From contig JAJQET010000079.1 of the NCBI GenBank assembly GCA_021201515.1, forward strand, positions 1 through 16,765: a DNA stretch of 16,765 bases, in the 5' to 3' direction. This document shows positions 1 to 14,531 of the stretch, in pieces. Origin of the DNA: Clostridiales bacterium (lineage in GTDB: Bacteria; Bacillota; Clostridia; Oscillospirales; Oscillospiraceae). Made by a program: the position numbers and the translations under genes. Under the pieces are notes generated by a model. The model was given only the letters and a program-made list of their open reading frames with translations. It was not told where the DNA came from and did no database searches. Each line of letters starts with the position of its first letter. Position 1 is the first letter of the stretch.

Positions 1-1077
1 CAGGCCACCATCCTGACCGCGCTGGCATATCTGTTGGGGGTGTTGCTGGTCAGCTATGCCATTGCAACCGTGAGCTGGGACTTTGCCAATGACCTCCTGG
101 CCCTGAACAAGGAGGAGCTGACCGCCACCATCACCATCGAGGAAGGGGAGACCGTCGACGAGATTGCCGCGGCCCTGAAAGAGGCCGGCCTCATCGAGTA
201 TCCCCTCCTGTTCAAGATATTCGCGGCCTTCACCGGGAAGGCGGAGGACGGCAAAATCGTCTCCGGCACCTACGAGCTGACCACGGATATGGATTACAGC
301 ACCCTGCTGACCAGCATTGGTCCCCAGTCCCCGGTGCGCTCTGTGGTGACGGTCACCATTCCCGAAGGCTACACCATGGCGGAGATCTTCGACCTGCTGG
401 AGGAGAACGGGGTCTGCTCTGCGGAGGATTTGATGGAGGCTGCCGAGACGGAGGACTTCGACTATGACTTCCTGGACGGCGTCACCGTCACCGGGGCCAG
501 CAGGCTGGAGGGCTACCTGTTCCCGGACACCTACGAGTTCTACATGCAGGCGTCGGCCACCAGCGTCATTAACAAGCTGCTGTCCAACTTTGAGACCCGT
601 TTCGACGAGGATATGCAGGCCCAGCTGGAGGAGCTGGACATGACGATGGAAGAGGTCATGATCGTGGCCTCCATCATCGAGAAGGAGACGGACGGCCAGG
701 ACCAGAAGGACATCGCCTCCGTCATCTATAACCGCCTCTCCGAGAGCAATACGGAGACCAACGGCTACCTCCAGATGGACTCCACCATTCAGTATCTGCT
801 GGACGAGCGGAAGGAGACCCTGACAGCGGAGGACTTGGCCATTGACAGCCCCTATAATACCTATCTGTACCCCGGTCTGCCGGTGGGCTGCATCTGCTGC
901 CCCGGCCTGGATTCCATCGAGGCGGCGCTGAACCCCAACGAGACGGATTACTACTACTTCTATCTGGGCAACGACGGCAGCACCTATTTCTTCAGCGACT
1001 ATGATTCCTTCCTGGCCTTCCGGCAGGAGCAGCTGGCCGAGGCGGGAACCGACGACGAGGAGGACGACGCTGCATGA
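1..1077 (+). CDS. mltG: Endolytic transglycosylase MltG (YceG-like), 5' end outside the window
   Basis: This membrane-anchored lytic transglycosylase cleaves nascent peptidoglycan strands inside the chain and so helps set glycan length. The reading frame is open from base 1, so the gene is cut by the window edge. The first codons encode a hydrophobic segment (LTALAYLLGVLLVSYAIATV), the single N-terminal membrane anchor, so a TTG at 34 inside that helix is not a believable start. Next come LysM-like stretches (EEGETVDEIAAALKEAGLI and VTIPEGYTMAEIFDLLEENG), then the catalytic core: ASIIEKET with the catalytic Glu encoded at 679-681, VIYNRL, LQMDSTIQYLL, and SPYNTYLYPGLPVG. The C-terminus is a short acidic tail. 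An oddity is GCICCPG, where the family usually has G-P-I-x-N-P-G. The stop overlaps the next start (ATGA), so the two genes are translationally coupled. Confidence 0.95.
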   Translation, partial: QATILTALAYLLGVLLVSYAIATVSWDFANDLLALNKEELTATITIEEGETVDEIAAALKEAGLIEYPLLFKIFAAFTGKAEDGKIVSGTYELTTDMDYSTLLTSIGPQSPVRSVVTVTIPEGYTMAEIFDLLEENGVCSAEDLMEAAETEDFDYDFLDGVTVTGASRLEGYLFPDTYEFYMQASATSVINKLLSNFETRFDEDMQAQLEELDMTMEEVMIVASIIEKETDGQDQKDIASVIYNRLSESNTETNGYLQMDSTIQYLLDERKETLTAEDLAIDSPYNTYLYPGLPVGCICCPGLDSIEAALNPNETDYYYFYLGNDGSTYFFSDYDSFLAFRQEQLAEAGTDDEEDDAA

Positions 1078-2288
1078 GGCACGGAGTCGAGCTGTTGGCC
1101 CCCGCCGGAGACATGGAACGGCTCCACATGGCGGTGGCTTACGGCGCAGATGCCGTCTACCTGGCGGGCACTGGCTTCGGAATGCGGGCCTTTACCGGGA
1201 ACTTCCGGCAGGACGAGCTGTATGAGGCGGTGCGCTACTGTAAAGCCCACGGGGTTGCCACCCATGTGACCATCAACACCATGCCCCGCAATGAGGAAAT
1301 CGCCCAGATCCCCGCCTGGCTGGAGACGCTGGAGGACGCCGGGGTGACGGCGGTGATTGTGGCCGACATGGGGGCCTTCCGGCTGGCGGAGCGGTACGCC
1401 CCCCATGTCCAACGGCACATCTCCACCCAGGTCAGCGTGTCCAACGCTGTAACCGCCCAGGCGTGGTATGACCTGGGGGCCAGCCGGGTGATTCTGGCCA
1501 GGGAGCTCTCCCTGGCGGAGATTCGGGAGATACGGGCCCACGTCCCCAAAGAGCTGGAGCTGGAGGCATTTGTCCACGGGGCCATGTGCGTCAGCTACTC
1601 CGGCCGGTGCCTGCTGTCCAACTACATGACCAACGACGCCCGGCGGGATTCCAGCCGGGGGGCCTGCGCCCAGCCCTGTCGCTACTCCTACGCCCTGATG
1701 GAGGAGAAGCGGCCGGGGGAGTATTTCCCCATCGAGGAGGACGGGAAGGGCAGTTACATCCTGTCCTCCCGGGATATGTGCATGATCGACCATGTGGAGG
1801 AGCTGATGGACGCCGGCCTGAACAGCCTGAAAATCGAGGGCCGGGCCAAAAGCGCCTACTATGCCGCCCTGGTCACAGGGGCCTATCGCCATGCCATTGA
1901 CGCGGCGGCGGCAGGGGAGCCGCTGAACCTGGTCTGGCGGGACGAGGTGGAAAAGGTCAGCCATCGGCACTATTCCACCGGCTTTTACTATGGCGACCCG
2001 GGGCAGTACTATCAGGATGACCGCTATATGCGCAATTTTCAAGTGGTGGCCATCTGCCAGTCCTGTGATGAGGACGGCAACGCCGTGTTCAGCCTGCGGA
2101 ACAAGTACCACGCAGGGGAGCGGGTGGAGCTGATCGGCCCGGATATCCTGCCCGTGGCGTTTATCGCCCCCGTGATGGAGACCATGGACGGGGAGATGCT
2201 GGAGGAGCCCCGCACCCCTCAGATGCTTTACCGGATGAGGCTGCCCCGGCAGGTGCCGCCCCTTTCCATTCTGCGGCGGGAAAAGTGA
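1074..2288 (+). CDS. trhP: U32-family (peptidase U32) protein, TrhP/YrrO-type tRNA hydroxylation enzyme
   Basis: The U32 family was named for a collagenase-like peptidase. Many members, including Bacillus YrrN/YrrO (TrhP1/TrhP2) and E. coli YegQ, instead hydroxylate tRNA wobble uridine, and related UbiU/UbiV and RlhA are also hydroxylation proteins. The protein is 404 aa, close to YrrO. It opens with VELLAPAGDMERLHMAVAYG, the usual TIM-barrel N-terminus. The U32 signature runs from Glu164 to Ser182 (E-A-F-V-H-G-A-M-C-x6-C). Cys172, Cys179, Cys198, Cys202 and Cys236 are spaced like the [4Fe-4S] ligands of U32 hydroxylases, so an iron-sulfur cluster is inferred. The start is the ATG overlapping the mltG stop. 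In Bacillus the mltG homologue yrrL also precedes the yrrN-yrrO pair, which supports the tRNA role over proteolysis. The usual methyltransferase gene (yrrM) between them is absent. Confidence 0.85.
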   Translation: MRHGVELLAPAGDMERLHMAVAYGADAVYLAGTGFGMRAFTGNFRQDELYEAVRYCKAHGVATHVTINTMPRNEEIAQIPAWLETLEDAGVTAVIVADMGAFRLAERYAPHVQRHISTQVSVSNAVTAQAWYDLGASRVILARELSLAEIREIRAHVPKELELEAFVHGAMCVSYSGRCLLSNYMTNDARRDSSRGACAQPCRYSYALMEEKRPGEYFPIEEDGKGSYILSSRDMCMIDHVEELMDAGLNSLKIEGRAKSAYYAALVTGAYRHAIDAAAAGEPLNLVWRDEVEKVSHRHYSTGFYYGDPGQYYQDDRYMRNFQVVAICQSCDEDGNAVFSLRNKYHAGERVELIGPDILPVAFIAPVMETMDGEMLEEPRTPQMLYRMRLPRQVPPLSILRREK

Positions 2289-2303
2289 ATCAAATTTCAT
2301 AAC

Positions 2304-2338
2304 ACAAGGCCCTTTGGCGTATTGCCAAAGGGCCTTGT
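2304..2338. terminator. Hairpin between convergent trhP and trmD, probably bidirectional
   Basis: A perfect 15-bp inverted repeat (2304-2318 against 2324-2338) encloses the 5-base loop GTATT. It lies 15 nt past the trhP stop and 5 nt past the trmD stop, so it can end transcription from both sides. Neither side has a clean T run (TTGCGG on plus, TGTTATG on minus), so termination may be incomplete. Confidence 0.8.
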
Positions 2339-2343
2339 TGCGG

Positions 2344-3111
2344 TTATGAGGTTGGTTCCTGCTCTTCCACTGCCAGCTCCGCCAGCAGCTTTTTGTCCTC
2401 CTTGGAGCTGAGGTCCAGCCTGGCGTACAGGTCGGGCCGCCGGTCTCTGGTGCGGCGGAGGGACTCCTTCCGCCGCCAGCGCTCCACCTTCCCGTGGTCG
2501 CCGGACAGCAAAATCGGAGGCACCTCCCGGCCATGCCACACCGCCGGGCGGGAATACTGGGGATACTCCAGCAGATTGTCCCAGTGGCTCTCGTTTTCGT
2601 AGCACGACGGGTCGGACAGCACCCCCGGTACCATCCGGCACACCGCGTCGGCAATGGCCATGGCGGCGTATTCCCCGCCGGTTAGCACGAAGTCACCCAG
2701 GCTCAGCTCCTCGTCCACGCACTCGTCCAGAAAGCGCTGGTCCACCCCCTCATAGTGACCGCAGACCAGAATCAGCCGGTCATAGGTGCTTACCAGCCGT
2801 TTGGCCTCCTGCTGGGTGAAGGTGACGCCGCAGGGGGACATGAAGATGGTATGCACCCGCCGCCCGGCCTCCTGGCAGATATGCCTCCAGCAGCGGTAAA
2901 GGGGGTCGGCCTGCATGATGGCCCCGTGGCCGCCGCCGTAGGGGTAGTCGTCCACCTGGTTTTGGCGGTTGGTGGTGTAGTCCCGAATCTGGTGGGACTG
3001 GATTTTGATGATGTCCCGCTCCTGGGCCCGGCCCAGGATGGATTCGTTCATCATATCGTCCACGCTGAGGGGGAAGAGGGTCATGATGTCGATTTGCATG
3101 GCGTAGCCCAT
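2344..3111 (-). CDS. trmD: tRNA (guanine37-N1)-methyltransferase TrmD
   Basis: TrmD transfers a methyl group from S-adenosylmethionine to N1 of G37, next to the anticodon, and so prevents +1 frameshifting. At 255 aa the length is normal. The SPOUT trefoil-knot landmarks are all present in order: IDIMTLFP near the N-terminus, YPYGGGHGAIMQADPLY, SPCGVTFTQQEAKRL, LILVCGHYEGVDQRF, SLGDFVLTGGEYAAMA (the Asp of this motif is the expected base), LLEYPQYSRPAVWHGREVP, and the C-terminal SGDHGKVERWRRKESLRRT. The ATG at 3111 begins one base after the rimM stop and has GGGG seven bases upstream. A second ATG at 3099 would give the commoner N-terminus MQIDIMTLFP, so the first four residues are uncertain. 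It is the last gene of the operon: rplS, which often follows, is missing here. Confidence 0.97.
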   Translation of the reverse strand: MGYAMQIDIMTLFPLSVDDMMNESILGRAQERDIIKIQSHQIRDYTTNRQNQVDDYPYGGGHGAIMQADPLYRCWRHICQEAGRRVHTIFMSPCGVTFTQQEAKRLVSTYDRLILVCGHYEGVDQRFLDECVDEELSLGDFVLTGGEYAAMAIADAVCRMVPGVLSDPSCYENESHWDNLLEYPQYSRPAVWHGREVPPILLSGDHGKVERWRRKESLRRTRDRRPDLYARLDLSSKEDKKLLAELAVEEQEPTS

Positions 3112-3112
3112 C

Positions 3113-3613
3113 TCACTGCCCCAGCCCTTCCAGCACGGTCATCACAATGGCACCACGCTCATCGTCGATTGCGTGGACGAAGGCAGGCACGTCGGGAATC
3201 AGGTATTCCTTCCCGTCCAGCCCGGCCACCTGGTACACATCCTGAGCAGGATACTCCAGCACGTCCGTCACCCTGCCGAACACTGCGCCGGTCTCGGCGT
3301 TGACGGCGTCCATGCCGATCAGGTCGGCCACGAAATGCTCCCCCTCGTCAATGGGCAGGTCGGCGCGCCGGGCCTGAACCACCCGGTTCTTCAGGGGAAG
3401 GGCGTCGTCAATGGAGGAGATGCCCTCCAGCATCAGCAGGGCGTGGACGCCCTGCACTCTGGCGGAGCGCACCGTGTACGCCGTGCCGCCCACAAAGACG
3501 GTGTCCAGCGCGCCGAAGTCCGCCGGGTCATTCAGCCAGCTCTCCACCTTCAGCTCCCCCCGGACGCCGTGGGTGTTGATGATTTTGCCGATTTCCAGCG
3601 TTTCTGTTTTCAT
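3113..3613 (-). CDS. rimM: 16S rRNA processing protein / ribosome maturation factor RimM
   Basis: RimM assists maturation of the 30S head, binding ribosomal protein S19 near the 3' domain of 16S rRNA. The N-terminal beta-barrel carries the family hallmark GKIINTHGVRGELKVESW. The C-terminal PRC-barrel domain runs from about VADLIGMDAVNAETG to the end, with the usual LEYPAQDVYQV and YLIPDVPAFV. I place the start at the ATG at 3613 (166 aa): AAGGAG at 3628-3623 sits nine bases upstream of it, whereas the in-frame TTG at 3622 would touch that site. trmD follows after one base, so the two are almost certainly co-translated. An intrinsic terminator lies 35 nt upstream, which leaves no room for an ordinary promoter, so expression probably depends on readthrough from khpA. 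Confidence 0.95.
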   Translation of the reverse strand: MKTETLEIGKIINTHGVRGELKVESWLNDPADFGALDTVFVGGTAYTVRSARVQGVHALLMLEGISSIDDALPLKNRVVQARRADLPIDEGEHFVADLIGMDAVNAETGAVFGRVTDVLEYPAQDVYQVAGLDGKEYLIPDVPAFVHAIDDERGAIVMTVLEGLGQ

Positions 3614-3622
3614 CTTGCACAA

Positions 3623-3628
3623 CTCCTT
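3623..3628 (-). promoter_or_regulatory. rimM ribosome binding site (sets the start codon)
   Basis: AAGGAG on the minus strand lies nine bases before the ATG at 3613. It rules out the upstream TTG at 3622, which has no spacing from it. Confidence 0.75.
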
Positions 3629-3647
3629 CTTGGGGTTGAAGTCTTAG

Positions 3648-3680
3648 GAAAAAAGCAGAGCCACCGGCCGGTGGCTCTGC
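3648..3680 (-). terminator. Intrinsic terminator inside the operon, after khpA and before rimM
   Basis: A perfect 26-base GC-rich palindrome (3655-3680, 13-base arms) begins six bases after the khpA stop. On the minus strand it is followed directly by six T residues (3654-3649). This is a canonical rho-independent terminator in the direction of the operon. The remaining 35 bases before the rimM ATG hold only a ribosome binding site. Confidence 0.88.
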
Positions 3681-3686
3681 CTTGTG

Positions 3687-3917
3687 TCATTCCATGATCT
3701 CCACCGAGACCCTGGTGTTGTTCCTCTGGGCGAACGAACGCACAACGGTGCGAATCTCCTTGGCGATGCGGCCCTGACGCCCGATCACCTTGCCCATGTC
3801 CTCAGGGGCGACCCGAAGCTCCAGAACAACCTCACCATCGCAATCAATCTCGTTGACGGAAACCGCATCGGGATTGTCCACCAGATTTTTCGCGATATAG
3901 ATCAAGAGCTCTTTCAT
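3687..3917 (-). CDS. khpA: KH-domain RNA-binding protein KhpA (YlqC)
   Basis: This 76-aa protein is a single type-II KH domain and little else. The RNA-binding GxxG loop is visible as Gly46-Arg-Gln-Gly49 in GKVIGRQGR, followed by the helix IAKEIRTVVRSFA. In streptococci and other Firmicutes KhpA pairs with KhpB (Jag) and affects cell elongation and RNA regulation; no khpB is in this window. The ATG at 3917 has GGAGG ten bases upstream and follows rpsP by 20 bases. The place between rpsP and rimM is its normal position in Firmicutes (ylqC in Bacillus), though the ylqD gene of the Bacillus order is absent and a terminator stands there instead. Confidence 0.95.
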   Translation of the reverse strand: MKELLIYIAKNLVDNPDAVSVNEIDCDGEVVLELRVAPEDMGKVIGRQGRIAKEIRTVVRSFAQRNNTRVSVEIME

Positions 3918-3937
3918 GCTGATCGATCCCTCCAGGA

Positions 3938-4177
3938 TTACAGTACGCCAGCCTGCTTGAGCAGACGCTTCACGGTGTCAGTGGGCTGTGCGCCGGTCTT
4001 GATCCAGGCCTGGGTGCGCTCTGCATCGACCTTGATCTCTGCGGGCTCGGTCAGGGGATTGTAAGTGCCCAGCTGCTCAATGAAGCGGCCGTCACGGGGA
4101 TAGCGGGAGTCAGCCACCACGATACGATAGAAAGGGGCCTTCTTCGCGCCCATGCGGCGCAGTCTGATTTTCACCAT
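3938..4177 (-). CDS. rpsP: 30S ribosomal protein S16
   Basis: S16 binds 16S rRNA early in small-subunit assembly. The 79-aa length is normal, and the family pattern is clear: [41 protein letters not shown], then [16 protein letters not shown] near the C-terminus. A strong ribosome binding site (GGAGGTG) lies upstream of the ATG at 4177. The 73-base gap to the preceding ffh stop is the widest in this operon and AT-richer than its surroundings. I see no convincing promoter or terminator in it, only a weak TGCTG/CAGCA hairpin. Confidence 0.98.
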
Positions 4178-4250
4178 TTATCATTCACCTCCAAAGATTA
4201 GTCACAATTTATGATTAACACATTGCTGTGCGAATCAGCAGGGAAGGGGG

Positions 4251-4676
4251 TTAGTGCTTCTTCTTGCGCTTGTTGCTCTTGCGCTGACGGCCTGCGCTGT
4301 GCCCGCCGCCGCCGAAGCGGCCGCTGAGCAGGCCCTCCATACCGCTCTGACCACCCACGATGCCGGAGACGTCGCCGCCGCTCATGGCCTGGCGCATGGC
4401 CTTGGGCATCTTGCCCCGGGCGAAGCGCTTGGTCAGCTGCTGCATCATCTCAAACTGTTTGAGCAGCTTGTTGACCTCCTGGACGGAGGTGCCGCTGCCG
4501 GCGGCAATACGCCGTTTGCGGGAGGCGTTCAGGATGGAGGGGTCGTTCCGCTCCTTCTTGGTCATGGAGAGGATGATGGCCTCGGTCCGGTCAATGGCCT
4601 TTTCATCGATCTGGCTCTCATCCACCTTGCCACTGAGGCCGGGCATCCGGTTCAAAATGTCACTCATGGAGCCCAT
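4251..4676 (-). CDS. ffh: Signal recognition particle protein Ffh, C-terminal M-domain fragment
   Basis: This 141-residue ORF is the methionine-rich M domain of Ffh, which binds 4.5S/6S SRP RNA and the signal peptide. It shows KMGSMSDILNRMPGLSG at its start, SMTKKERNDPSILNASRKRR, the SRP-RNA-binding stretch RIAAGSGTSVQEVNKLL, then FEMMQQLTKRFARGKMPKAM and a basic Gly-rich tail. It is in the same frame as the upstream GTPase part, from which it is separated by one TAG and eight sense codons. The ATG at 4676 has AGGAG nine bases upstream, so re-initiation could make it as a separate polypeptide. Joined through the TAG, the whole gene would be 483 codons, a normal Ffh length. It is either a broken gene, a sequence error, or a genuine two-piece Ffh. 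Confidence 0.85.
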   Translation of the reverse strand: MGSMSDILNRMPGLSGKVDESQIDEKAIDRTEAIILSMTKKERNDPSILNASRKRRIAAGSGTSVQEVNKLLKQFEMMQQLTKRFARGKMPKAMRQAMSGGDVSGIVGGQSGMEGLLSGRFGGGGHSAGRQRKSNKRKKKH

Positions 4677-4703
4677 TTTCCTGGTCTCCTGAATCTGGTC
4701 CTA
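4677..4703 (-). other. In-frame TAG codon and possible restart site within ffh
   Basis: Reading the minus strand, the codons run TTC TAG GAC CAG ATT CAG GAG ACC AGG AAA ATG. The positions 5702 and 4676 are in the same phase, so this is a nonsense codon and not a frameshift. The codon falls where other Ffh proteins usually have Leu (DF-L-DQ); TTG to TAG is one base change. AGGAG lies nine bases before the ATG at 4676. Confidence 0.9.
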
Positions 4704-5702
4704 GAAGTCCTGAAGGGTGAAGCGATTCTTGCGGATCTTCCGCTCCATCTCCTCGGCCTTTTCCTGATCCAGCTGATCCTGGGCCTTTTCGATCAGGGTC
4801 AGCATATCGCCCATGCCCAGGATACGGCTGGCCATGCGGTCAGGGTGGAACACCTCGATAGCGTCCAGCTTCTCCCCGACACCCACGAACTTGACAGGCT
4901 TACCGGTGGTGGCCCGAATGGACAGGGCCGCGCCGCCGCGGGCATCGCCGTCCAGTTTGGTCAGCATGACGCCGGTAATGTCCAGGGCGGCGTCGAAGGC
5001 TTCTGCGGCCCGGACGGCGTCCTGGCCAATCATGGCGTCCACCACCAGCATGATCTCATCCGGAGAGACGGCTGCCTTCATCCGCTTCAGCTCGTCCATC
5101 AGCGCATCGTCCACATGGAGGCGGCCTGCGGTGTCCAGGAACACAACATCGTTGCCGTGCTCTTTGGCGTGCTGTACGGCTGCCCTGGCGATTTCCACCG
5201 GGTCGCCCTGGCCCTGCTCAAAGACGGGGATGTTCAGCTGCTGCCCCACCACCTGCAGCTGCTGAATGGCGGCGGGACGGTACACGTCGCAGGCGGCCAG
5301 CAGGGGACGCATCCCCTTTTTGGAGCGCATATAGGCGGCCAGCTTGGCGGAGTTGGTGGTCTTGCCCGCCCCCTGCAAACCCACCATCATCACAACGGTG
5401 GGGGACTTGGGGGCAATGTTCAGCCGGGCGGCCTCCCCGCCCATGAGGGCGATCAGCTCCTCATTGACGATTTTTACCACCATCTGAGCGGGGGTCAGGG
5501 AGGAGATGACATCCTGCCCCACGGCCCGCTCGGTGACGCGGTTGATGAAATCCTTCACCACGGAATAGCTGACGTCGGCCTCCAGAAGGGCCAGCCGAAT
5601 CTCCCGCATGGCGTCCCTGACGTCGGATTCCGTCAGGCGGCCCTTGCTGCGGAGCTTGCTGAATACGCTATTCAGTTTTTCTGTTAAACCTTCAAAAGCC
5701 AT
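4701..5702 (-). CDS. ffh: Signal recognition particle protein Ffh, N-terminal NG (GTPase) part ending at an in-frame TAG
   Basis: Ffh is the SRP GTPase that delivers nascent membrane and secreted proteins to the Sec translocon through its receptor FtsY. This 333-residue part contains the N domain (MAFEGLTEKLNSVFSKLRSKG onward) and the G domain: P-loop GLQGAGKTTNSAKLA, the DVYRPAA motif, DTAGRLHVD, TKLDGDARGGAALS and the closing GVGEKLDAIEVFHPDRMASR. It stops at TAG (4701-4703) immediately after RKNRFTLQDF, where the family normally continues with Leu-Asp-Gln into the M domain. All GTPase motifs are intact. The ATG at 5702 lies four bases after the ylxM stop, with its AAGGAG inside the end of ylxM. 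Without an M domain this piece could not bind SRP RNA or signal peptides. Confidence 0.92.
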   Translation of the reverse strand: MAFEGLTEKLNSVFSKLRSKGRLTESDVRDAMREIRLALLEADVSYSVVKDFINRVTERAVGQDVISSLTPAQMVVKIVNEELIALMGGEAARLNIAPKSPTVVMMVGLQGAGKTTNSAKLAAYMRSKKGMRPLLAACDVYRPAAIQQLQVVGQQLNIPVFEQGQGDPVEIARAAVQHAKEHGNDVVFLDTAGRLHVDDALMDELKRMKAAVSPDEIMLVVDAMIGQDAVRAAEAFDAALDITGVMLTKLDGDARGGAALSIRATTGKPVKFVGVGEKLDAIEVFHPDRMASRILGMGDMLTLIEKAQDQLDQEKAEEMERKIRKNRFTLQDF

Positions 5703-5706
5703 GAGG

Positions 5707-6069
5707 TTACTCCTTTAGTGCCTCTACCTTGGATTGGAGGGAGGAGATGAGGTCTGCCAGGGGCTGACTCCCGATGCGAGTGTCGTTCAGCTCGGCGATT
5801 TGGTCGGCCAGCGTGCTGACCTCCTGCAGGCTGCGCTGCACCTCCAGAAACCGGGCGATGATGCCGGTTTTCTCCTCCATCTCCGTCAGAATCGCGTCCG
5901 CCCGGACAATGACATCCCGCACACCCTGCCGGGTGATGTTGGCGTTCTCCGCGATTTCCGCCAGAGACAGATCCTCATTATAGTAGAGGTCATAAAACTC
6001 TTTCTGGCGTTCGGTCAACAAGTCACCGTAAAAGTCAAAAAGCATGGTTTTCTCGAATGCCTGTTCCAT
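5707..6069 (-). CDS. ylxM: YlxM/p13-like helix-turn-helix protein (UPF0122)
   Basis: YlxM is a small protein with a sigma-70 region-4-like helix-turn-helix, linked in Firmicutes to the SRP pathway by its conserved place directly before ffh. In Streptococcus it has been reported to bind SRP components. The 120-aa sequence begins with the typical LFDFYGDLLTERQKEFYDLYY, followed by the HTH (LSLAEIAENANITRQGVRDVIVRA) at about residues 34-57, then a helical C-terminus. The start at 6069 is preceded by AAAGGCGG. It is the first gene behind a consensus promoter and is four bases from ffh. The more distant neighbours often seen (ftsY, smc) are absent; the other side is the divergent glucan synthase gene. 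Confidence 0.93.
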   Translation of the reverse strand: MEQAFEKTMLFDFYGDLLTERQKEFYDLYYNEDLSLAEIAENANITRQGVRDVIVRADAILTEMEEKTGIIARFLEVQRSLQEVSTLADQIAELNDTRIGSQPLADLISSLQSKVEALKE

Positions 6070-6094
6070 GGTGTCCGCCGCCTTTCACGCCGAT

Positions 6095-6118
6095 TTGTAA
6101 AGCTGCCATGCTTTACAA
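6095..6118 (-). repeat. Inverted repeat at the ylxM transcription start (operator or 5' UTR hairpin)
   Basis: TTGTAAAGC and GCTTTACAA form perfect 9-base arms around a 6-base centre. The repeat begins eight bases downstream of the -10 box, so it covers the predicted first transcribed bases. It could bind a repressor or fold as a stem at the 5' end of the mRNA. There is no T run, so it is not a terminator. Confidence 0.6.
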
Positions 6119-6125
6119 CGTGCTT

Positions 6126-6154
6126 ATTATACCGTGAATCCGGAGGCTTGTCAA
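6126..6154 (-). promoter_or_regulatory. Consensus sigma-A promoter of the ylxM-ffh-rpsP-khpA-rimM-trmD operon
   Basis: On the minus strand TTGACA (6154-6149) and TATAAT (6131-6126) are both perfect and separated by exactly 17 bases. The expected transcription start is near 6119, about 50 bases before the ylxM ATG. Confidence 0.92.
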
Positions 6155-6200
6155 GGGGTTTTCCTTTCAAATTTCGCAAAAAAGAAGGGTACAGCGCATA

Positions 6201-6287
6201 ATGACGGGAAAACCGGAAAGACTTGTGGCAGATGTTTTCGCAGCTTTGGCCGTCTGCCAGGGCGGACGCACGGAACCGGAGGAATGA
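6201..6287 (+). CDS. Possible 28-codon leader ORF before the glucan synthase gene
   Basis: The ORF MTGKPERLVADVFAALAVCQ... ends with TGA at 6285-6287, three bases before the synthase ATG. Its last codons contain the synthase ribosome binding site, an arrangement typical of translational coupling. Its own ribosome binding site is weak (GAAGGG, 11 bases upstream). I recognise no homologue. It could be chance in GC-rich DNA, or a remnant of a longer N-terminus. Confidence 0.3.
   Translation: MTGKPERLVADVFAALAVCQGGRTEPEE
6278..6282 (+). promoter_or_regulatory. Ribosome binding site of the glucan synthase gene
   Basis: GGAGG lies eight bases before the ATG at 6291 and fixes this start over the ATG at 6284, which is one base from it. 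I see no convincing promoter for this gene in 6130-6280; CATAAT at 6197-6202 is a weak -10 candidate without a matching -35. Confidence 0.8.
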
Positions 6288-6290
6288 CGG

Positions 6291-9200
6291 ATGACAAGAG
6301 AGGAAGCCTTTCGCGCAGGCGGCGTGGCCTGCGCCCGGTACCTGGCGGACGAAGCCTGTCCGGCCCGGGAGACGGCCCGCGCCCAACGTGGGGCGCTGCT
6401 GGCGCTGCGCCGGCAGATGGAGGGGCTGGAACATATGACCGCTGCCCGGCGACAGGTTCCCTCTGCTGCGGAATGGCTGCTGGACAATTTTTCCGTCTAC
6501 CAGAGCAGGGCGTTGCTGGCGATAGAGGAATTTCAGCAGGGGACACGGCTCCCCGCCTGCTCCAACCGGGGAGATCGGCTGCGGGTCATCCTGCTGGCGG
6601 AGCAGGCGGTGGAAACGGCCTCGGACGGCGACGGCTGCCTCGCCTTTTTCGAGGGGGTGCAGGAGGCCGCGCCGCTGTCGGAGGGGGAGTGCGCTCTGCT
6701 GGGCAGCGCATTGCTGCTGGGGCTGCTGCCGGTGCTAAGGCGGCTCGGTACCAAGGTGCAGGAGGCGGACTGGTGGCAGGGGGAGGCCCTTGCAGCCCTG
6801 GCGGAGGAGCTGAAACAGGTCTTCGCCCTGTTTCACGAACTGGCCGCGCCGGAGTTTGCCCGGCGTCTGGCAAAGCTGAGCGCTGCGGAGCGGATGCTCC
6901 GGCAGGACCCGGCGGGGCTGTACCCGAACCTGGCGGAGGAGAGCCGCAGCGCCTGCCGCGCCGCCCTGGCCCGGACGGCAAAGCGTAAACGGGTGCGGGA
7001 GCGGGACTATGCGGAAGAACTGCTGGGCCGGGCCAGGAGGGAGGGCCGCTCCGTGGCGGAGCTGCTGTTTCCGGCCCCCGGAACCGGGGCGTGGTACCCG
7101 CTGGCGGTCGGGGGCGGCACTGTGGCGCTGGCGCTGCTGGGGCAGATTCTGCTGGGCCGGTGGTGGAGCGGGCTGCTGCTGGTGCTGCCTATCTCGGAGC
7201 TGGTAAAGCAGGAGCTGGACTTCCTGCTGCTCCGGTGGGTGCCGGTGCGCCCGCTGCTTCGGCTGTCGCTGGAGGACGGCGTCCCGGTGGAGGGGCGCAC
7301 CCTGTGCGTCATCCCGGCCCTCCTCACCGACGGGGAGGCGGGGGAGACGCTGGCCAAAAAACTGGAATATCATGCGCTGGTGTCCAAGCGGGCGGGGAAG
7401 GAGATCCGCTACGGTATCCTGGCGGATCTGCCGGACGCCCCGTTTGGGGAGGACGCGCTGCGGCGGGGCTGGGTCGAAAACGCGAAACAGGCCGTCGCCG
7501 CCTTGAACAGCAGGTACGGCGGCGGCTTCTACCTGTTCTACCGTGAACCGACCTACGCCCGCCGGGACAACTGCTGGCGTGGCTGGGAGCGGAAACGGGG
7601 GGCCCTGCTGGAGCTGGCCCGCTTCCTGCGGAAGCTGCCCTCCGGCATCCGCGTGCTGGAGGGGGAGGAACAGGACCTGACCGGCACCCGGTTCCTGCTG
7701 ACACTGGATGAGGACACCCGGCTGCTGCCGGACACAGCGGAACGGCTGATCGCCACGATGCTTTGCCCCCTGAACCGGCCCAGGCTGGACGAAACCAGGC
7801 GGGTGGTGCAGTCCGGTTACGGCATTTTGCAGCCCGCCGTTGGGATGGCGCTGGAGGAGGAGGGGGCCACGGCCTTTGCCCGGCTGCACAGCGGACAGGG
7901 AGGGGCGGAGCCCTACGCCTTTGCCTCCAGCGAGCTGTACCGGGATGTCTTTGACCGGGGCAGCTACACGGGGAAGGGGCTGATCGACATCGACGCCTTC
8001 CTGACCTGCCTGGACCACCGGTTCCCGGAGGGGTGTGTCCTGTCCCACGACCTGCTGGAAGGGGAATACCTTCACACCGGTCTGGCAGGGGGCTGCCCCG
8101 TGTTGGACAACGCCCCCCAGACCGCCCTGGCCTGGTACCGGCGGCTGCACCGCTGGACGAGAGGGGACTGGCAAACCCTCCCCTGGCTCAGAAAAACGGT
8201 GGATAACGAGTTTGCACAGCGTGTGGAAAATCCCTTGAACTCCCTCTCAAAGTGGAAAATTTTGGACAATTTGCGGCGCAGTTTGGTACCGGTGGCCCTG
8301 ATTTTAGCACTGGCCCTGGGGGCCTGCGGAAGGGGGTCGGTATTCTGGCCCGGCGTCGTGCTGGCGTTGGCGGTCAGCGTGGAGGGGGTGCTGCTGCACG
8401 GGCTGGCCCGCCTCCTGAGCCGGGGGAAGGGGGGAATCCCCCACTTTCGGACGAAGACGGTTTCCGGGCTGACGGGAGCAATCAGGGTGGCGGCGGCCCG
8501 GTTCCTCCTGCTGCCCTGCGAGGCGTGGGTGCAGCTCTGGGCGGCGGTGACCGCCTTGATTCGGATGGGCATCACCCGGCGGGGCCTGCTGGACTGGACG
8601 GTCAGCGCCGGGGCCGAGGATGCCGCCGGCGTGTGGGCGGTTTGGCATAGGCTGCTGCCCGCCTCCGGGCTGGGGCTGGCGGTGCTGGTGCTGGGGCAAA
8701 ATGCGGCGGGAAGGCTGCTGGGGCTGCTGTGGCTTTTGTCCCCGCTGCTGGCCTGGTATCTGAGCCGCCCGGAGGAGGCCGTCAAACTGTCGGAAGGGGA
8801 GCTGGCCTTTCTGCGGGAGGAGGCCGGGGCCCTCTGGCGGTACTTTGACACCTTCCTGACCCCGGCAGACCACTTCCTGCCGCCGGACAACGTCCAGGAG
8901 CGCCCGGCGGCTGGGATCGCCCACCGCACGTCTCCCACCAACATGGGGCTGTCGCTGACGGCCTGTCTGGCCGCACTGGACCTGGAGCTGACGGAGCGGA
9001 ACCGGGCGCTGTTTCTCATTGAGCGGCAGCTGACCGCCATGGAGGGGCTGGAGCGGTGCCACGGCCACTTTTACAACTGGTATGATACCTGCAAGGCAGA
9101 ACCCCTTTACCCACGCTACCTCTCCACTGTGGACAGCGGCAACCTGTGCGCCGCCCTCATCGCCCTGGCCCAGGGGTTGCAGGAGCTGGGGGAACTGGCG

Positions 9201-12200
9201 TTGGCCCGGCGGGCCAGCCGTCTGGCGGAGGAGATGAATTTCGCCTTCCTGTACGACGAGGGACAGCACCTCTTTTATATCGGCTATGACGCCGAAGGCG
9301 GCGGCTACACGAACAGCTGGTACGACCTGATGTGTTCCGAAGCCCGCACCGCCAGCTATATCGCCATCGCCAGGGGAGAGGTGGAGGGTCGGCACTGGCG
9401 GCACCTGTCCCGGGCGCTGCTGCGCTCCGGCCGGCACGCAGGTATGGCCTCCTGGTCGGGGACGGCCTTTGAGTATCTGATGCCCCAGCTCTTCCTGCCC
9501 GCCCCCAGAGGGTCCCTGCTCCGGGAGACCCTGGCCTTCTGCGTGGCGGAGCAATATCGGGCGCGGGGAAGGCAAAAAGGGGTCTGGGGCGTCTCCGAGT
9601 CCGCCTTTTTCGCCCTGAACGGGGACGGCAGCTACTGCTATCAGGCCAACGGCACCCCCTCCCTGGCCCTGAAGCGGGAGACGGGCAGGCGGGTGGTGTC
9701 CCCCTACGCCTCCGCGCTGGCGCTGACGGTGACGCCCCGGCTGGCGGCGCAGAACCTCCGCAGGCTAGACGAGCTGGGGATGAACGGACAATACGGCTTT
9801 TACGATGCACTGGATTTGACCGTTCCCGGCGGAGCCGTCGTCCGCACCTGGATGGTGCATCATCAGGGGATGAGCCTGCTTGCCATTGACAACGCGCTGC
9901 ATCAGAATATTTTTGTGCGCCGCTTTTTGCGGGAACCGGCCATGGCGGCCTTTGCCCCTCTGCTGGGGGAGACGTTGCCAACCGGCCCCGCCATGCGGCG
10001 CAGGGAGGAACCTATGAGGAAAAGAAAAGCGCCGCCCGTGACCCCCTTTGCCCGGGGCGGCACCGGCTTCGACCCGGCGCAGCCCACCGCCCATCTCTAC
10101 TCCGACGGCAGCTTCCACAGCCTGCTCGCGGCGGACGGCGGGGGCTGGTGCGCCTTTGCCGGAAAGCGTATGACGGGGGATGCCGGTGTGCTGAACGTCA
10201 CCGCCCGGCTGGACGGGAAGGAATACGCCGTCTTTCCCTGCGGGCAGGCGGATAACCGCCTGGAATGGCGCTTTGAGGAGGAACGGGCCACGCTGTCCCT
10301 GACGGAGGAGTCCTTCCAGATCCGGCAGGAGGTGGCGCTGCGGAGCGGCCTGAACGGGGCCCGTCACACCCTTTGGATGGAGAACCGCAGCACATCCCCC
10401 ATGACTGTGCGCTGCACGCTGCAACCGATCCTGCTGGAGGAGGACGCCTACGCCGCTCACCCGGCCTTCGCCCGGCTGTCGGTGGAGAGCGAGCCGCGCC
10501 CCCAGGGCGTCCTGTTCCGCCGCCGCCCCAGGGAGGGCCGGGAAGCCCTCTGTCTGGTGGCGCTGTGGGATGGCCCGGTGGCGCGCTGGGACACCGCCCG
10601 CATCCACGCGGACCGGCCCGCAGGGCACACGGGGGCGGTCTGCGACCCCCAGCTGACGCTGGAGCTGGCGCTTCCGGGGAAGGGAACCGGGCGGCTCATC
10701 CTGGCCCTTTCCGTGGGGGAGGAGAGGCAGGCCCTGCGGAACGCGGAAGGGATTCTGGGCGGGCTGAAAACTCCGCAGCCGTCCTTTGCACTCCAGCTCT
10801 CGGAGCGCTGCGGCCTCTCCCTCCGGGAGCGGCAGGAGGCGGATCGGCTGCTCTCTCACCTGCTGCACTGGTGGACAAAGCGGGCGGCGGCGGGGATACA
10901 GGGCCCTCAGGACCTGTGGCCCTTCGGCCTCTCCGGCGACCTGCCCATTGCGGTGACTGAGGCGGGCGGAAACGATGCCCGGCGGCTGGCTCGGTTCGCC
11001 GCCGAGCATGAGCTGCTGGTGCGCTGCGGCTACCCCTTTGACCTGGTCATTCTGGACAGAAGCGGCGCACTGGAGGAGCCCCTCTGCGGGGAACTGCGGC
11101 GGAGGCATATCCCCGCCACCTTTGGAGGCAGCGGCGGTCTGCACCTGATTTCCGCAGCCCCGGAGCAGTGGGCCCCCATCTATGCCGGGGCCGCTGTGGT
11201 GCTGCAAAACGAGGTGCCACAGCAGCCGACGGAGGTTGCCCTGCCCCTGGCAAAGGGGGTTCCCATCCCATCCCAGGAAGGGGACTGCCGGTGGGAATGG
11301 CTGGAGGACGGTTTCCGGCTTTTCCTGCACAACGCGCTGCCGCCCCGGCGCTGGAGCCATATCCTGGCAAACGAGAACCTCGGCTGGCTGACGGACGAGT
11401 GCGGCACAGGCCACCTGTGGTATGGCAACGCAAGGGAGAATCAGCTCCTCCCCTGGGAGAACGATCCCCTGGCACAGCAGGGGCCGGAGGATTTGCTGCT
11501 CCTGGCGGAAGGGGAGGAGGTCTCCTGCTTCGCCCGCCGGGACGGCTGGGAGACGGTGGTGCGCTATCGCGCGGGCTTCGCCTCCTGGCAAAAGCGAAAA
11601 AATGGCAAGGAGATTTCCCTGACAGCGGAGCTTCCTCTGCATGAGAATTGCAGAACCTTCTGTCTGACCGTCTCCGGCTTCCAGACTCAGGTACAACTCT
11701 GCTGGAAGCTGTGGCCCCAGCTGGCGGAGCGGCGCAGGGATGCCCGATTTGTACGGATGCAGCAGAAGGACGGCGGCATTGCCCTGACGAATGGGGCGAA
11801 TCAGGATTTCCCCGGCGTGGAGCTTTTGCTCCGGGCAGAGGGCTGCCCACTGGCGCTGGAGCCGCTGCCGGACGGGGGATTCTGCCTGTCCTGTCCGGTT
11901 ATGGGCAGCCTTTCTTTGATGGCAGGCATAAATGCTTTACAGGAAAACGAGCAAACGCCGCCTCTCCTGAAGCCGGACTATGACTGGCCGCAGCTGGCCT
12001 CCCCGCTGAGGCTGGAGACGCCGGACGGGGCGCTGAACCATTATCTCAGCTTCTGGTGTCTCTATCAGGTGGTGGCCTGTCGGCTGTTTGCCCGCACCAG
12101 CCTGTACCAGTGCGGCGGGGCCTTTGGGTTTCGGGATCAGCTACAGGATGTCTGCGCCCTGATGGCTACCGCGCCGGAGCTGGCCCGGCAGCAGATTCTG

Positions 12201-13484
12201 CGGGCGGCGGCCCACCAGTTCCGGGAGGGGGACGTGCAGCACTGGTGGCACCCCAGAGGGACGGCGGAGCCGGAGCGGGGCGTCCGTACCCGCATCAGCG
12301 ACGACCTGCTGTGGCTGCCCTACGCCCTGACCTGTTGGGTGGAGACGACAGGGGAGACCTCCCTCCTGAAAGAGCAGGTGGGCTGGCGCACCAGCGAACC
12401 CCTCCAGCCCCAGGAGCAGGAGCGCTACGAGACCCCCGCCAGGGCCGGGGAGACGTCCACCCTGTACGAACACGGCTGCGCTGCCATTCACTGCGTCATC
12501 ACCCGGGGCACCGGCGGCCACGGCCTGCTGCTGATGGGCGGCGGGGACTGGAACGACGGCCTGAATCGCATCGGCGCGGAAGGGAAGGGGGAGAGCGTCT
12601 GGCTGACCTGGTTCGCTGCCCTGGTCCTGGAGCGGTGGTCGGCAGTGGCGGAGGGGCAGAACGATACCGCCCGGTCGGTTCGCTGCGCCCGTCGGGCCCA
12701 GGAGCTGGCCCAGGCCGCCAACCGGGCTTGGGACGGCCACTGGTACCTCCGTGGCTACGACGATGGGGGCAGGCCCTTCGGCGGTGAGGGTCATCCTTTC
12801 TGCCGGATGGACTCCATCGCCCAGAGCTTTTCCGTCTTTGCGCCGAACCCCCAGCCGGAGCGGGGCAGGGAGGCAGTGTTACAGGCGGTGTCCGCCCTCT
12901 ACGACGCCGACCGGGGTACGGTGGCCCTACTGCGGGGCGGCTTCCAGCCCGGCAGCGGGGCGGGTTATATTCAGAGTTATCCCTCAGGCGTCCGGGAGAA
13001 CGGCGGGCAGTACACCCACGGGGCGGTGTGGCTGGCCGGGGCCTGCTATCGGCTGGGGGAGCGGGAGCTGGGCTGGCGCCTCCTGCGGGACCTCCTGCCG
13101 GAGCGCCACGACAGCGGCGTTTACGAAGGAGAGCCTTACGTGTTGGCCGGGGACGTGTCCACTGCGCCGGGACAGGAGGGGCGCTGCGGCTGGAGTTGGT
13201 ACACCGGCGCGGCGGCGTGGTATTACCGCACGGCCACGGAGGCGCTGCTGGGGATTCGGCAGCGGGGCGGCAGGCTGTACCTGAACCCACAGCTGCCGGA
13301 GGGCTGGGACGGCTACCGGGCCACCCTGCGCCTTGCCGGAAAGACGCTGCGCATCCGCGTCCATTGCACCGGGCCCTGTCAGATTCTGGTGGACGGCGTG
13401 CCAAAGGAAAACGGCCTTGCCCTGGACAGTTTGGGAGGGCAGGCAGAGCTGACCGTGTTTTGCGGTAAAAACGCGGGACAGTGA
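6291..13484 (+). CDS. Cyclic beta-1,2-glucan synthase-like protein (GT84 + glycoamylase-like + GH94)
   Basis: Proteins of this architecture (NdvB/Cgs) polymerise UDP-glucose into beta-1,2-glucan at the membrane, cyclise it and trim chain length. Order in this 2397-aa protein: an N-terminal helical domain with PSAAEWLLDNF; two hydrophobic segments near 269-305; the GT84 domain with TLDEDT (Asp473, Asp475), FDRGSYTGKGLIDIDAF at 554-570, LSHDLLEG at 584 and RWTRGDWQ at 621; further membrane segments at roughly 664-709, 735-760 and 788-826; the glycoamylase-like cyclisation domain (GH189 in the Thermoanaerobacter enzyme) with TSPTNMGLS, YNWYDT, WYDLMCSEARTASYIAI and WSGTAFEYLMP, at about 865-1200; beta-sandwich parts of GH94 from about 1250; LWPFGLSGDLPIAV near 1543; and the GH94 barrel with GFRDQLQD (1946), RTRISDDLLWLPYAL, GGDWNDGLN (Asp2086/Asp2089, general-acid region) and YPSGVRENGGQYTHGAVW. 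All motifs are intact. NdvB-type enzymes are mostly about 2800-2900 aa, so this is a compact form. Acceptor and ring size cannot be read from the sequence. Confidence 0.9.
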   Translation: MTREEAFRAGGVACARYLADEACPARETARAQRGALLALRRQMEGLEHMTAARRQVPSAAEWLLDNFSVYQSRALLAIEEFQQGTRLPACSNRGDRLRVILLAEQAVETASDGDGCLAFFEGVQEAAPLSEGECALLGSALLLGLLPVLRRLGTKVQEADWWQGEALAALAEELKQVFALFHELAAPEFARRLAKLSAAERMLRQDPAGLYPNLAEESRSACRAALARTAKRKRVRERDYAEELLGRARREGRSVAELLFPAPGTGAWYPLAVGGGTVALALLGQILLGRWWSGLLLVLPISELVKQELDFLLLRWVPVRPLLRLSLEDGVPVEGRTLCVIPALLTDGEAGETLAKKLEYHALVSKRAGKEIRYGILADLPDAPFGEDALRRGWVENAKQAVAALNSRYGGGFYLFYREPTYARRDNCWRGWERKRGALLELARFLRKLPSGIRVLEGEEQDLTGTRFLLTLDEDTRLLPDTAERLIATMLCPLNRPRLDETRRVVQSGYGILQPAVGMALEEEGATAFARLHSGQGGAEPYAFASSELYRDVFDRGSYTGKGLIDIDAFLTCLDHRFPEGCVLSHDLLEGEYLHTGLAGGCPVLDNAPQTALAWYRRLHRWTRGDWQTLPWLRKTVDNEFAQRVENPLNSLSKWKILDNLRRSLVPVALILALALGACGRGSVFWPGVVLALAVSVEGVLLHGLARLLSRGKGGIPHFRTKTVSGLTGAIRVAAARFLLLPCEAWVQLWAAVTALIRMGITRRGLLDWTVSAGAEDAAGVWAVWHRLLPASGLGLAVLVLGQNAAGRLLGLLWLLSPLLAWYLSRPEEAVKLSEGELAFLREEAGALWRYFDTFLTPADHFLPPDNVQERPAAGIAHRTSPTNMGLSLTACLAALDLELTERNRALFLIERQLTAMEGLERCHGHFYNWYDTCKAEPLYPRYLSTVDSGNLCAALIALAQGLQELGELALARRASRLAEEMNFAFLYDEGQHLFYIGYDAEGGGYTNSWYDLMCSEARTASYIAIARGEVEGRHWRHLSRALLRSGRHAGMASWSGTAFEYLMPQLFLPAPRGSLLRETLAFCVAEQYRARGRQKGVWGVSESAFFALNGDGSYCYQANGTPSLALKRETGRRVVSPYASALALTVTPRLAAQNLRRLDELGMNGQYGFYDALDLTVPGGAVVRTWMVHHQGMSLLAIDNALHQNIFVRRFLREPAMAAFAPLLGETLPTGPAMRRREEPMRKRKAPPVTPFARGGTGFDPAQPTAHLYSDGSFHSLLAADGGGWCAFAGKRMTGDAGVLNVTARLDGKEYAVFPCGQADNRLEWRFEEERATLSLTEESFQIRQEVALRSGLNGARHTLWMENRSTSPMTVRCTLQPILLEEDAYAAHPAFARLSVESEPRPQGVLFRRRPREGREALCLVALWDGPVARWDTARIHADRPAGHTGAVCDPQLTLELALPGKGTGRLILALSVGEERQALRNAEGILGGLKTPQPSFALQLSERCGLSLRERQEADRLLSHLLHWWTKRAAAGIQGPQDLWPFGLSGDLPIAVTEAGGNDARRLARFAAEHELLVRCGYPFDLVILDRSGALEEPLCGELRRRHIPATFGGSGGLHLISAAPEQWAPIYAGAAVVLQNEVPQQPTEVALPLAKGVPIPSQEGDCRWEWLEDGFRLFLHNALPPRRWSHILANENLGWLTDECGTGHLWYGNARENQLLPWENDPLAQQGPEDLLLLAEGEEVSCFARRDGWETVVRYRAGFASWQKRKNGKEISLTAELPLHENCRTFCLTVSGFQTQVQLCWKLWPQLAERRRDARFVRMQQKDGGIALTNGANQDFPGVELLLRAEGCPLALEPLPDGGFCLSCPVMGSLSLMAGINALQENEQTPPLLKPDYDWPQLASPLRLETPDGALNHYLSFWCLYQVVACRLFARTSLYQCGGAFGFRDQLQDVCALMATAPELARQQILRAAAHQFREGDVQHWWHPRGTAEPERGVRTRISDDLLWLPYALTCWVETTGETSLLKEQVGWRTSEPLQPQEQERYETPARAGETSTLYEHGCAAIHCVITRGTGGHGLLLMGGGDWNDGLNRIGAEGKGESVWLTWFAALVLERWSAVAEGQNDTARSVRCARRAQELAQAANRAWDGHWYLRGYDDGGRPFGGEGHPFCRMDSIAQSFSVFAPNPQPERGREAVLQAVSALYDADRGTVALLRGGFQPGSGAGYIQSYPSGVRENGGQYTHGAVWLAGACYRLGERELGWRLLRDLLPERHDSGVYEGEPYVLAGDVSTAPGQEGRCGWSWYTGAAAWYYRTATEALLGIRQRGGRLYLNPQLPEGWDGYRATLRLAGKTLRIRVHCTGPCQILVDGVPKENGLALDSLGGQAELTVFCGKNAGQ

Positions 13485-13510
13485 AACAGCCGGGAAAAAA
13501 ACCGCAACGC

Positions 13511-13542
13511 AAAAAGGGAGGAGGGCATTGCTGCCCTCCTCC
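13511..13542 (-). terminator. Terminator of the ABC/pseudo-deacetylase unit; may also end the glucan synthase transcript
   Basis: Perfect 11-base arms (13517-13527 and 13532-13542) enclose a 4-base loop. On the minus strand the stem is followed closely by five T residues (13515-13511), a canonical intrinsic terminator for the gene ending at 13566. On the plus strand only a delayed TTTT (13550-13553) follows, so it is weaker for the synthase gene, whose stop is 32 bases upstream. Confidence 0.85.
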
Positions 13543-13565
13543 TGACTGATTTTGCACGCAGAGGC

Positions 13566-14531
13566 TCACCCCTCATACTGGGCGTAGATTCCGTTGATGA
13601 TCTCCGCCAACTCGTCAATCCGGGCCTGAATCTCCGCCATCTGTTCCTCATAGTTGGCCTGGTTTGCCGCCTCGGTGGAATTGATTTCGGACAGCTCCGT
13701 CACCACATCCGCCACCGTGGAGAAGACGCAGTCCTCCTGCTCCACATAGCTTTGCATGGTGTCCATCAGATTCGTCACATAGGACTCTTCCAGGGAACCG
13801 GAGTTGATGCTCTCCATATCAAAGGCGATAAGCATGGACGTCTTGTTTTTATACATTGCGGCGATGCGGCTTGCCACCGATGTGCCGGAGGAGGTCAGAT
13901 AGGAGTAGTCAAAGTATACCGTTCCATCCTCATCCTGTCCGGCGATGGGGGTGCTGCTGTGATAGCTGGTGTATCCGACAAATCCGTCGTCCTTTAACAG
14001 CTGAATGTTGGAATCCGTGGTGTAGTCGGAGCGCAGGAGGAACACGCTGGTGTGTTCCCGCCCGATGGTTTCCAGCCAGGACAGGGCGGAAAGGACGCTC
14101 TCATTCACTGTCTCTGAAAAGGCGGGGGTATACAGCATGACCTCCCAGGCGTCGTCCGCCGCGTCCAGAATGTCTTCCATGACGGATTGCTCCAGCGTGC
14201 AGTCCAGGATGAGGACGGGCGGGAAGTCATATGTGTCCGCCATGGTTTCCATGTAAGACAAATCCGACACATCCGTCACCACAAAGCCCACCATAAGCGC
14301 GGCCGTCTCACTGGAGTAGGAGATGTTTTCCTCCAGCTCTTCCAGCTGACTTTTCAGTTCCCTTTGTTCCCGCTCATAGACCGACGCCTCGTTCTGCAGG
14401 GCCTGAAGCTGCGTCTCCTGGGCGTCTGCCTCCTGCTGATCGGTGTAGAACAGATAGGCAAGCCCGACGGCCAGCGCAATGCTCAGCATTGCGCCGAGGA
14501 TATTCCAGATGAGTGACCCTTTACGCTTCAT
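13566..14531 (-). CDS. Membrane-anchored coiled-coil protein with a degenerate polysaccharide-deacetylase-like domain
   Basis: No named family is recognised with certainty. The protein (321 aa) starts with a basic tip and one membrane helix (about residues 5-29, SLIWNILGAMLSIALAVGLAYLF), followed by a Glu/Gln-rich coiled coil (about 31-72), so the rest should lie outside the cytoplasm. The central part follows the strand/helix order of NodB-type deacetylases: WEVMLYTPAF, FLLRSDYTTDSNIQLLKDDGFVGYTSY, SMLIAFDMES and a closing CVFSTVADVV. The metal-binding Asp-Asp and His-x3-His positions are not present, so it is probably non-catalytic. A second coiled coil (about 285-318) ends it. The start at 14531 has GGGGAGG at nine bases and overlaps the preceding stop by 11 nt; a longer version from 14591 would lie deep inside that gene. 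Coupling suggests a shared task with the exporter. Confidence 0.75.
   Translation of the reverse strand: MKRKGSLIWNILGAMLSIALAVGLAYLFYTDQQEADAQETQLQALQNEASVYEREQRELKSQLEELEENISYSSETAALMVGFVVTDVSDLSYMETMADTYDFPPVLILDCTLEQSVMEDILDAADDAWEVMLYTPAFSETVNESVLSALSWLETIGREHTSVFLLRSDYTTDSNIQLLKDDGFVGYTSYHSSTPIAGQDEDGTVYFDYSYLTSSGTSVASRIAAMYKNKTSMLIAFDMESINSGSLEESYVTNLMDTMQSYVEQEDCVFSTVADVVTELSEINSTEAANQANYEEQMAEIQARIDELAEIINGIYAQYEG

Follow-up and report, generated by a model that had tools for sequence, protein, structure and literature searches.

The single in-frame TAG that interrupts ffh, a protein-targeting gene that is normally essential, in one metagenome-assembled draft genome (here G000) is in all likelihood a sporadic one-base nonsense change in a single metagenome contig, being either a consensus error or a recent deleterious allele. 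The TAG is probably a sequencing or consensus error in an assembly of low completeness, in which case the cells would produce a normal Ffh of full length; with lower probability, it would be a genuine and recent nonsense allele carried by some members of the sampled population. Among the genomes examined, G000 alone has TAG at this codon. We infer that the bacteria possess an intact Ffh, and no new mechanism (neither a ‘split’ protein nor a new genetic code) is needed to account for the interrupted gene. A previous, sequence-only reading of the same DNA had left open three possibilities: a sequence or assembly error, readthrough by a suppressor tRNA, and a real two-polypeptide Ffh. The first of these, widened to include a recent nonsense allele, fits best, and the last is unsupported.

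The interrupted gene and its surroundings

The window, by which we mean the whole stretch of DNA that was analysed (16,765 nucleotides), is the entire contig C281 of G000, a draft of 1.69 Mb in 344 contigs that is 61.9% complete. Its minus strand carries the gene order ylxM-ffh-rpsP-khpA-rimM-trmD (Table 1), in which rpsP and the khpA-like KH-domain gene are putative names given from their sequences. When read over its stop, ffh scores 605.5 bits against the model of bacterial Ffh (TIGR00959, cut-off 473.2), thereby passing the curated cut-off with one TAG inside; the G part by itself scores 485.9 bits. The single uninterrupted reading frame of bacterial Ffh is broken at codon 334. The initial description of one in-frame TAG, with both halves of the gene in one frame, therefore stands, and the gene is conserved on either side of the stop. 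The contig contains zero ambiguous letters and its remaining genes look open, both of which are points against an error.

The existence of an intact second ffh elsewhere in the genome had been named as something to check; none was found in the G000 draft at its 61.9% completeness, where the sole further match, which lies below the cut-off and covers the GTPase region only, is probably FtsY.

Table 1. Features of the window, with the other interrupted or broken genes discussed in the text (positions are those of the window unless a contig is given).
Feature	Position	Strand	Remarks
ffh	5702 to 4251	-	483 codons, including TAG at codon 334
In-frame TAG of ffh	4701..4703	-	codon 334 of 483; read from the sequence
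ffh, N-terminal part	4704..5702	-	333 codons up to the stop, encoding the SRP54_N domain, the SRP54 GTPase domain and a linker; ‘G part’ (ORF 4701-5702, 333 aa)
ffh, C-terminal part	4251..4700	-	remainder of the M domain, which binds signal peptides; same frame; ends in TAA; ‘M part’
ATG (Met 343)	4674..4676	-	proposed restart; Met conserved in most genus relatives
AGGAG	4686..4690	-	9 bases ahead of the ATG; within codons of a conserved peptide
ylxM	5707..6069	-	upstream neighbour; intact
rpsP	3938..4177	-	intact; ends in TAA; coordinates assigned by hand
KH-domain protein gene (khpA-like)	3687..3917	-	intact; ends in TGA; coordinates assigned by hand
2397-codon ORF	6291-13484	+	glycoamylase-like and GH94 domains
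341-aa ORF	13566-14591	-	listed from TTG; no Pfam match
715-aa ABC transporter ORF	14521-16668	-	membrane and ATPase domains
OppC-like permease gene (L145)	G000:C12, 1453-2945		1-base deletion
ffh of G146 (L154)	G146:C20		stop at residue 34; stretch with 44 ambiguous letters
ffh of G394 (L259)	G394:C90		stop at residue 113, in the P-loop
ffh of G432 (L260)	G432:C140		stop at residue 383; partial gene at contig end

Three further reading frames of the window may be described here. The 2397-codon ORF, which we take to resemble cyclic beta-glucan synthases, has the same length in a near relative (G016) except for two compensating one-base gaps. The 341-aa ORF overlaps its upstream neighbour, the ABC transporter ORF, at the end of the latter, and the transporter itself is extended at its N terminus by about 170 residues without a Pfam match.

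Position of the stop and the corresponding codon in relatives

The stop had been described as lying ‘exactly between’ the GTPase and M domains, at a codon where the family usually has Leu; neither statement survives comparison with other genomes. Two relatives with an intact gene place the end of the GTPase domain (PF00448) at residue 296 and the start of the M domain (PF02978) at residue 327; the TAG corresponds to position 8 of the PF02978 model and so falls at the eighth residue of the M domain. The residue found at this codon is Tyr in all 29 of the other genus loci that cover it (25 TAC and 4 TAT), each of these codons being one substitution away from the TAG of the window. In a wider set, which partly overlaps the genus genomes, the best 80 loci listed have Tyr in 58 cases, Leu in 17 and another residue in 5.

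The comparison with close relatives, which had been suggested as a check, thus finds the gene intact at this codon throughout the genus loci and the TAG to be a singleton. An Ffh match was obtained in 31 of 32 genomes of the genus, with a stop inside the match only in G000; none was found in the other 31 genomes searched, among which G003 gave no match and G027 was covered by its first fragment only. The stops that were flagged in four FtsY-like matches of the same search are taken to be the terminators of those genes. The break is therefore neither common to the relatives (29 of 29 are unbroken) nor placed outside the domains. The nearest relatives are G016, which aligns at 93.7% over the full window, and G014, which aligns at 93.0% over positions 1-13561; the Ffh protein of the window is 98.5% identical to that of both.

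Selection on the two parts of the gene

Pairwise comparison with G014 and G016 gave values of dN (0.006-0.009) and dS (0.16-0.24) that hold for both the G part and the M part. At codons on which G014 concurs with G016, the M part has acquired 9 synonymous changes and 1 non-synonymous change on the branch leading to the window, and the comparison of proteins shows one more non-synonymous change, at residue 483; in the absence of constraint, the expectation for this part is about 32 non-synonymous changes, against the 1-2 observed. Over ffh as a whole, 37 synonymous and 5 non-synonymous changes fall on the window’s branch, versus 45 and 2 for G014 and G016 together, a difference that does not reach significance (Fisher P 0.25; 0.15 if residue 483 is included). 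Both parts of ffh thus show strong purifying selection, and the M part was in use until recently, or still is. Decay of the M part was considered and, in view of such selection, is rejected for most of the branch.

Lone stops and other breaks in draft genomes

Single in-frame stops in ffh are found elsewhere, in 3 of the 285 other genomes listed from searches of the family and the order (about 1%), a total from which G000 and three genomes present in both listings have been subtracted. The family search gave a match in 276 of 300 genomes, with 150 matches listed and some 127 further matches outside the count; the order search gave 142 matches in 140 of 147 genomes, all of them listed and some of them partial genes. 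The stops lie at scattered positions (Table 1), and one of them, in the P-loop, can hardly be functional, a pattern that is like that of sporadic errors or pseudogenes. Given such a frequency of lone ffh stops, a new mechanism cannot be argued from a single stop in a single draft. The three genomes are drafts of 90-410 contigs that are 96-98% complete and are not, by that measure, poor drafts, which is a point against error.

Breaks of other kinds were counted only where a Pfam match extends across or beside the lesion, the lists of flagged ORFs including doubtful or antisense ORFs and upstream extensions. In the compared stretches of G000 itself, at least one more gene is broken: that of an OppC-like permease carries a one-base deletion relative to G016 that falls within its BPD_transp_1 domain. 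G016 in turn has two frameshifted ABC-transporter genes, one for an ABC ATPase, a gene that reads open in G000, and the other for an ABC permease. This amounts to about two lesions per roughly 75 ORFs in the two drafts, with the flagged ORFs partly resolved. A lesion that is private to one draft, accompanied by sporadic lesions in the same and similar drafts, is what a sequence or assembly error would be expected to leave, and is what was found.

Partial Ffh protein records

Two further points that could be held against an error come from protein records: P0121, a possible sign of the same stop in a second assembly, and records from other taxa that end near residue 333. P0121 (141 aa) is identical to the M part of the window’s ffh and comes from another contig, of 1505 bases. 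Fourteen other listed M-side proteins start at the same Met, however, nine of them on contigs shorter than 2 kb, so that gene callers may simply start there when presented with fragments; on these grounds the reading of P0121 as a second assembly bearing this stop was set aside. No identical G-part partner for P0121 was present in the best 120 matches to the C-terminal 190 residues of the G part, and none was listed in a search with the whole G part.

A few truncated Ffh records from other taxa (P0260, P0295, P0310 and P0326) terminate at residue 333 or directly beside it; P0326, with 332 aa, is located on a contig of 294784 bases; these form a weak lead, found by a search whose query ended at residue 333 and whose candidates were of at most 332 aa, a design that favours that length. 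In addition, the G part P0354, which terminates near residue 309, and the M part P0128 each lie on a contig of 9531 bases and may represent one more broken ffh.

Use of TAG and the tRNA complement

It had been noted from the sequence that no gene of the window with a visible stop ends in TAG, and that the 2397-codon gene contains no in-frame TAG. Both observations are correct (the former for the nine window ORFs that were checked, rpsP and khpA included; the latter gene contains its terminal stop only), and the absence of TAG terminators from the window is a small-sample effect. In the stretches of G000 and G016 that were compared, 61 pairs of ORFs end at the same residue; eight of these end in TAG in G000, and seven of the eight do so in G016 as well. 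About three of the eight, the shortest, may be false ORFs, and one of the remainder presumably resembles ruvC. TAG is an ordinary stop in G000, and its rarity or absence as a terminator, the mark of reassignment or suppression, is not seen there. Wholesale reassignment of TAG, which the sequence-only reading already considered unsupported, is contradicted by these terminators and is ruled out.

When 75 ORFs of G016 were read in G000, a TAG interruption appeared in ffh only, the other stops flagged among them being TGA and falling mostly in doubtful ORFs. A search for a tRNA with a CUA anticodon had also been recommended. The G000 draft yielded 18 tRNA-like matches, of which 17 gave an anticodon; none of the 17 is CUA, in a draft that is 61.9% complete and from which many tRNAs are missing. 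Neither is CUA found among 8 tRNAs in 0.94 Mb of G016.

Alternative explanations

A genuine TAG that is read through by a suppressor tRNA, probably as Tyr, such that full-length Ffh is still partly made, is an improbable account. Conservation of the M part on the window’s branch would agree with it, as would the Tyr codon of the genus relatives (E. coli is known to have amber suppressor tRNAs that insert Tyr), and the modest number of tRNAs recovered would leave room for an additional one. It is opposed by the lack of a CUA anticodon among the tRNAs of both genomes, by the use of TAG as a terminator in G000 (in most cases shared with G016), by the absence of any further in-frame TAG from the compared ORFs and by the fact that the stop occurs in no genus relative examined. 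Synthesis of Ffh as two polypeptides, with an NG part running up to the TAG and, from a restart at Met 343, an M part, is scarcely credible. The AGGAG nine bases ahead of an ATG, on which a restart of the M domain had been proposed, is indeed present, and both parts are open in one frame; however, of the 29 other genus loci, 12 have the same arrangement of AGGAG, nine bases and ATG at the corresponding site of an unbroken gene, and it is not evidence for a restart because it arises from the codons of a conserved peptide that precedes a conserved Met. It is thus not a start signal specific to a split gene. Use of the M part as a separate chain would agree with its conservation, and M-only protein records exist in other taxa, a few of them on contigs longer than 100 kb (P0123, P0184). 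Against this, a restart at Met 343 would remove residues 327-342, the first 16 of the M domain (which we take to be its first helix), the split is common to no genus relative examined, and among the titles and opening lines of abstracts that were retrieved, no paper title describes a natural split Ffh.

Decay of ffh in this lineage, with targeting by the signal recognition particle (SRP) dispensable or lost, is likewise exceedingly doubtful. In its favour, neither SRP RNA family (RF00169 or RF01854) was matched in the G000 draft; these searches are weak, the draft being 62% complete and both models also missing the Bacillus subtilis control, and the absence may reflect the limits of the search only. 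The strong purifying selection shown by both parts of the gene speaks against decay, as do the single lesion and the probable FtsY gene of G000. It is also very unlikely that the TAG is genuine and fixed, with partial readthrough as Tyr or separate NG and M parts, and that the level or function of SRP is set at this codon; if it were, the records P0260, P0310 and P0326 near residue 333 would be a sign of recurrence. A consensus error, or failing that a recent nonsense allele, continues to be the preferred explanation. The case matters mainly as a caution concerning lone stops in ffh, a normally essential gene, in draft genomes. Were the TAG real, it would offer a rare natural test of an Ffh that works in two pieces or under amber suppression.

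Comparison with known systems

The window gene is homologous to bacterial Ffh/SRP54 (TIGR00959; PF02881, PF00448 and PF02978) over its whole length, on both sides of the stop, and differs from it by the in-frame TAG that G000 alone has at residue 334. Amber suppression by a mutant tRNA, as found in E. coli laboratory strains, would make the TAG in ffh a sense codon, whereas in G000 no CUA tRNA was seen and TAG is a normal stop. The ffh genes of G146, G394 and G432 resemble that of the window in having one in-frame stop within a gene that is otherwise conserved, in a draft genome; they differ in that their stops fall elsewhere (at residues 34, 113 and 383) and, in the case of G432, in that the gene is partial.
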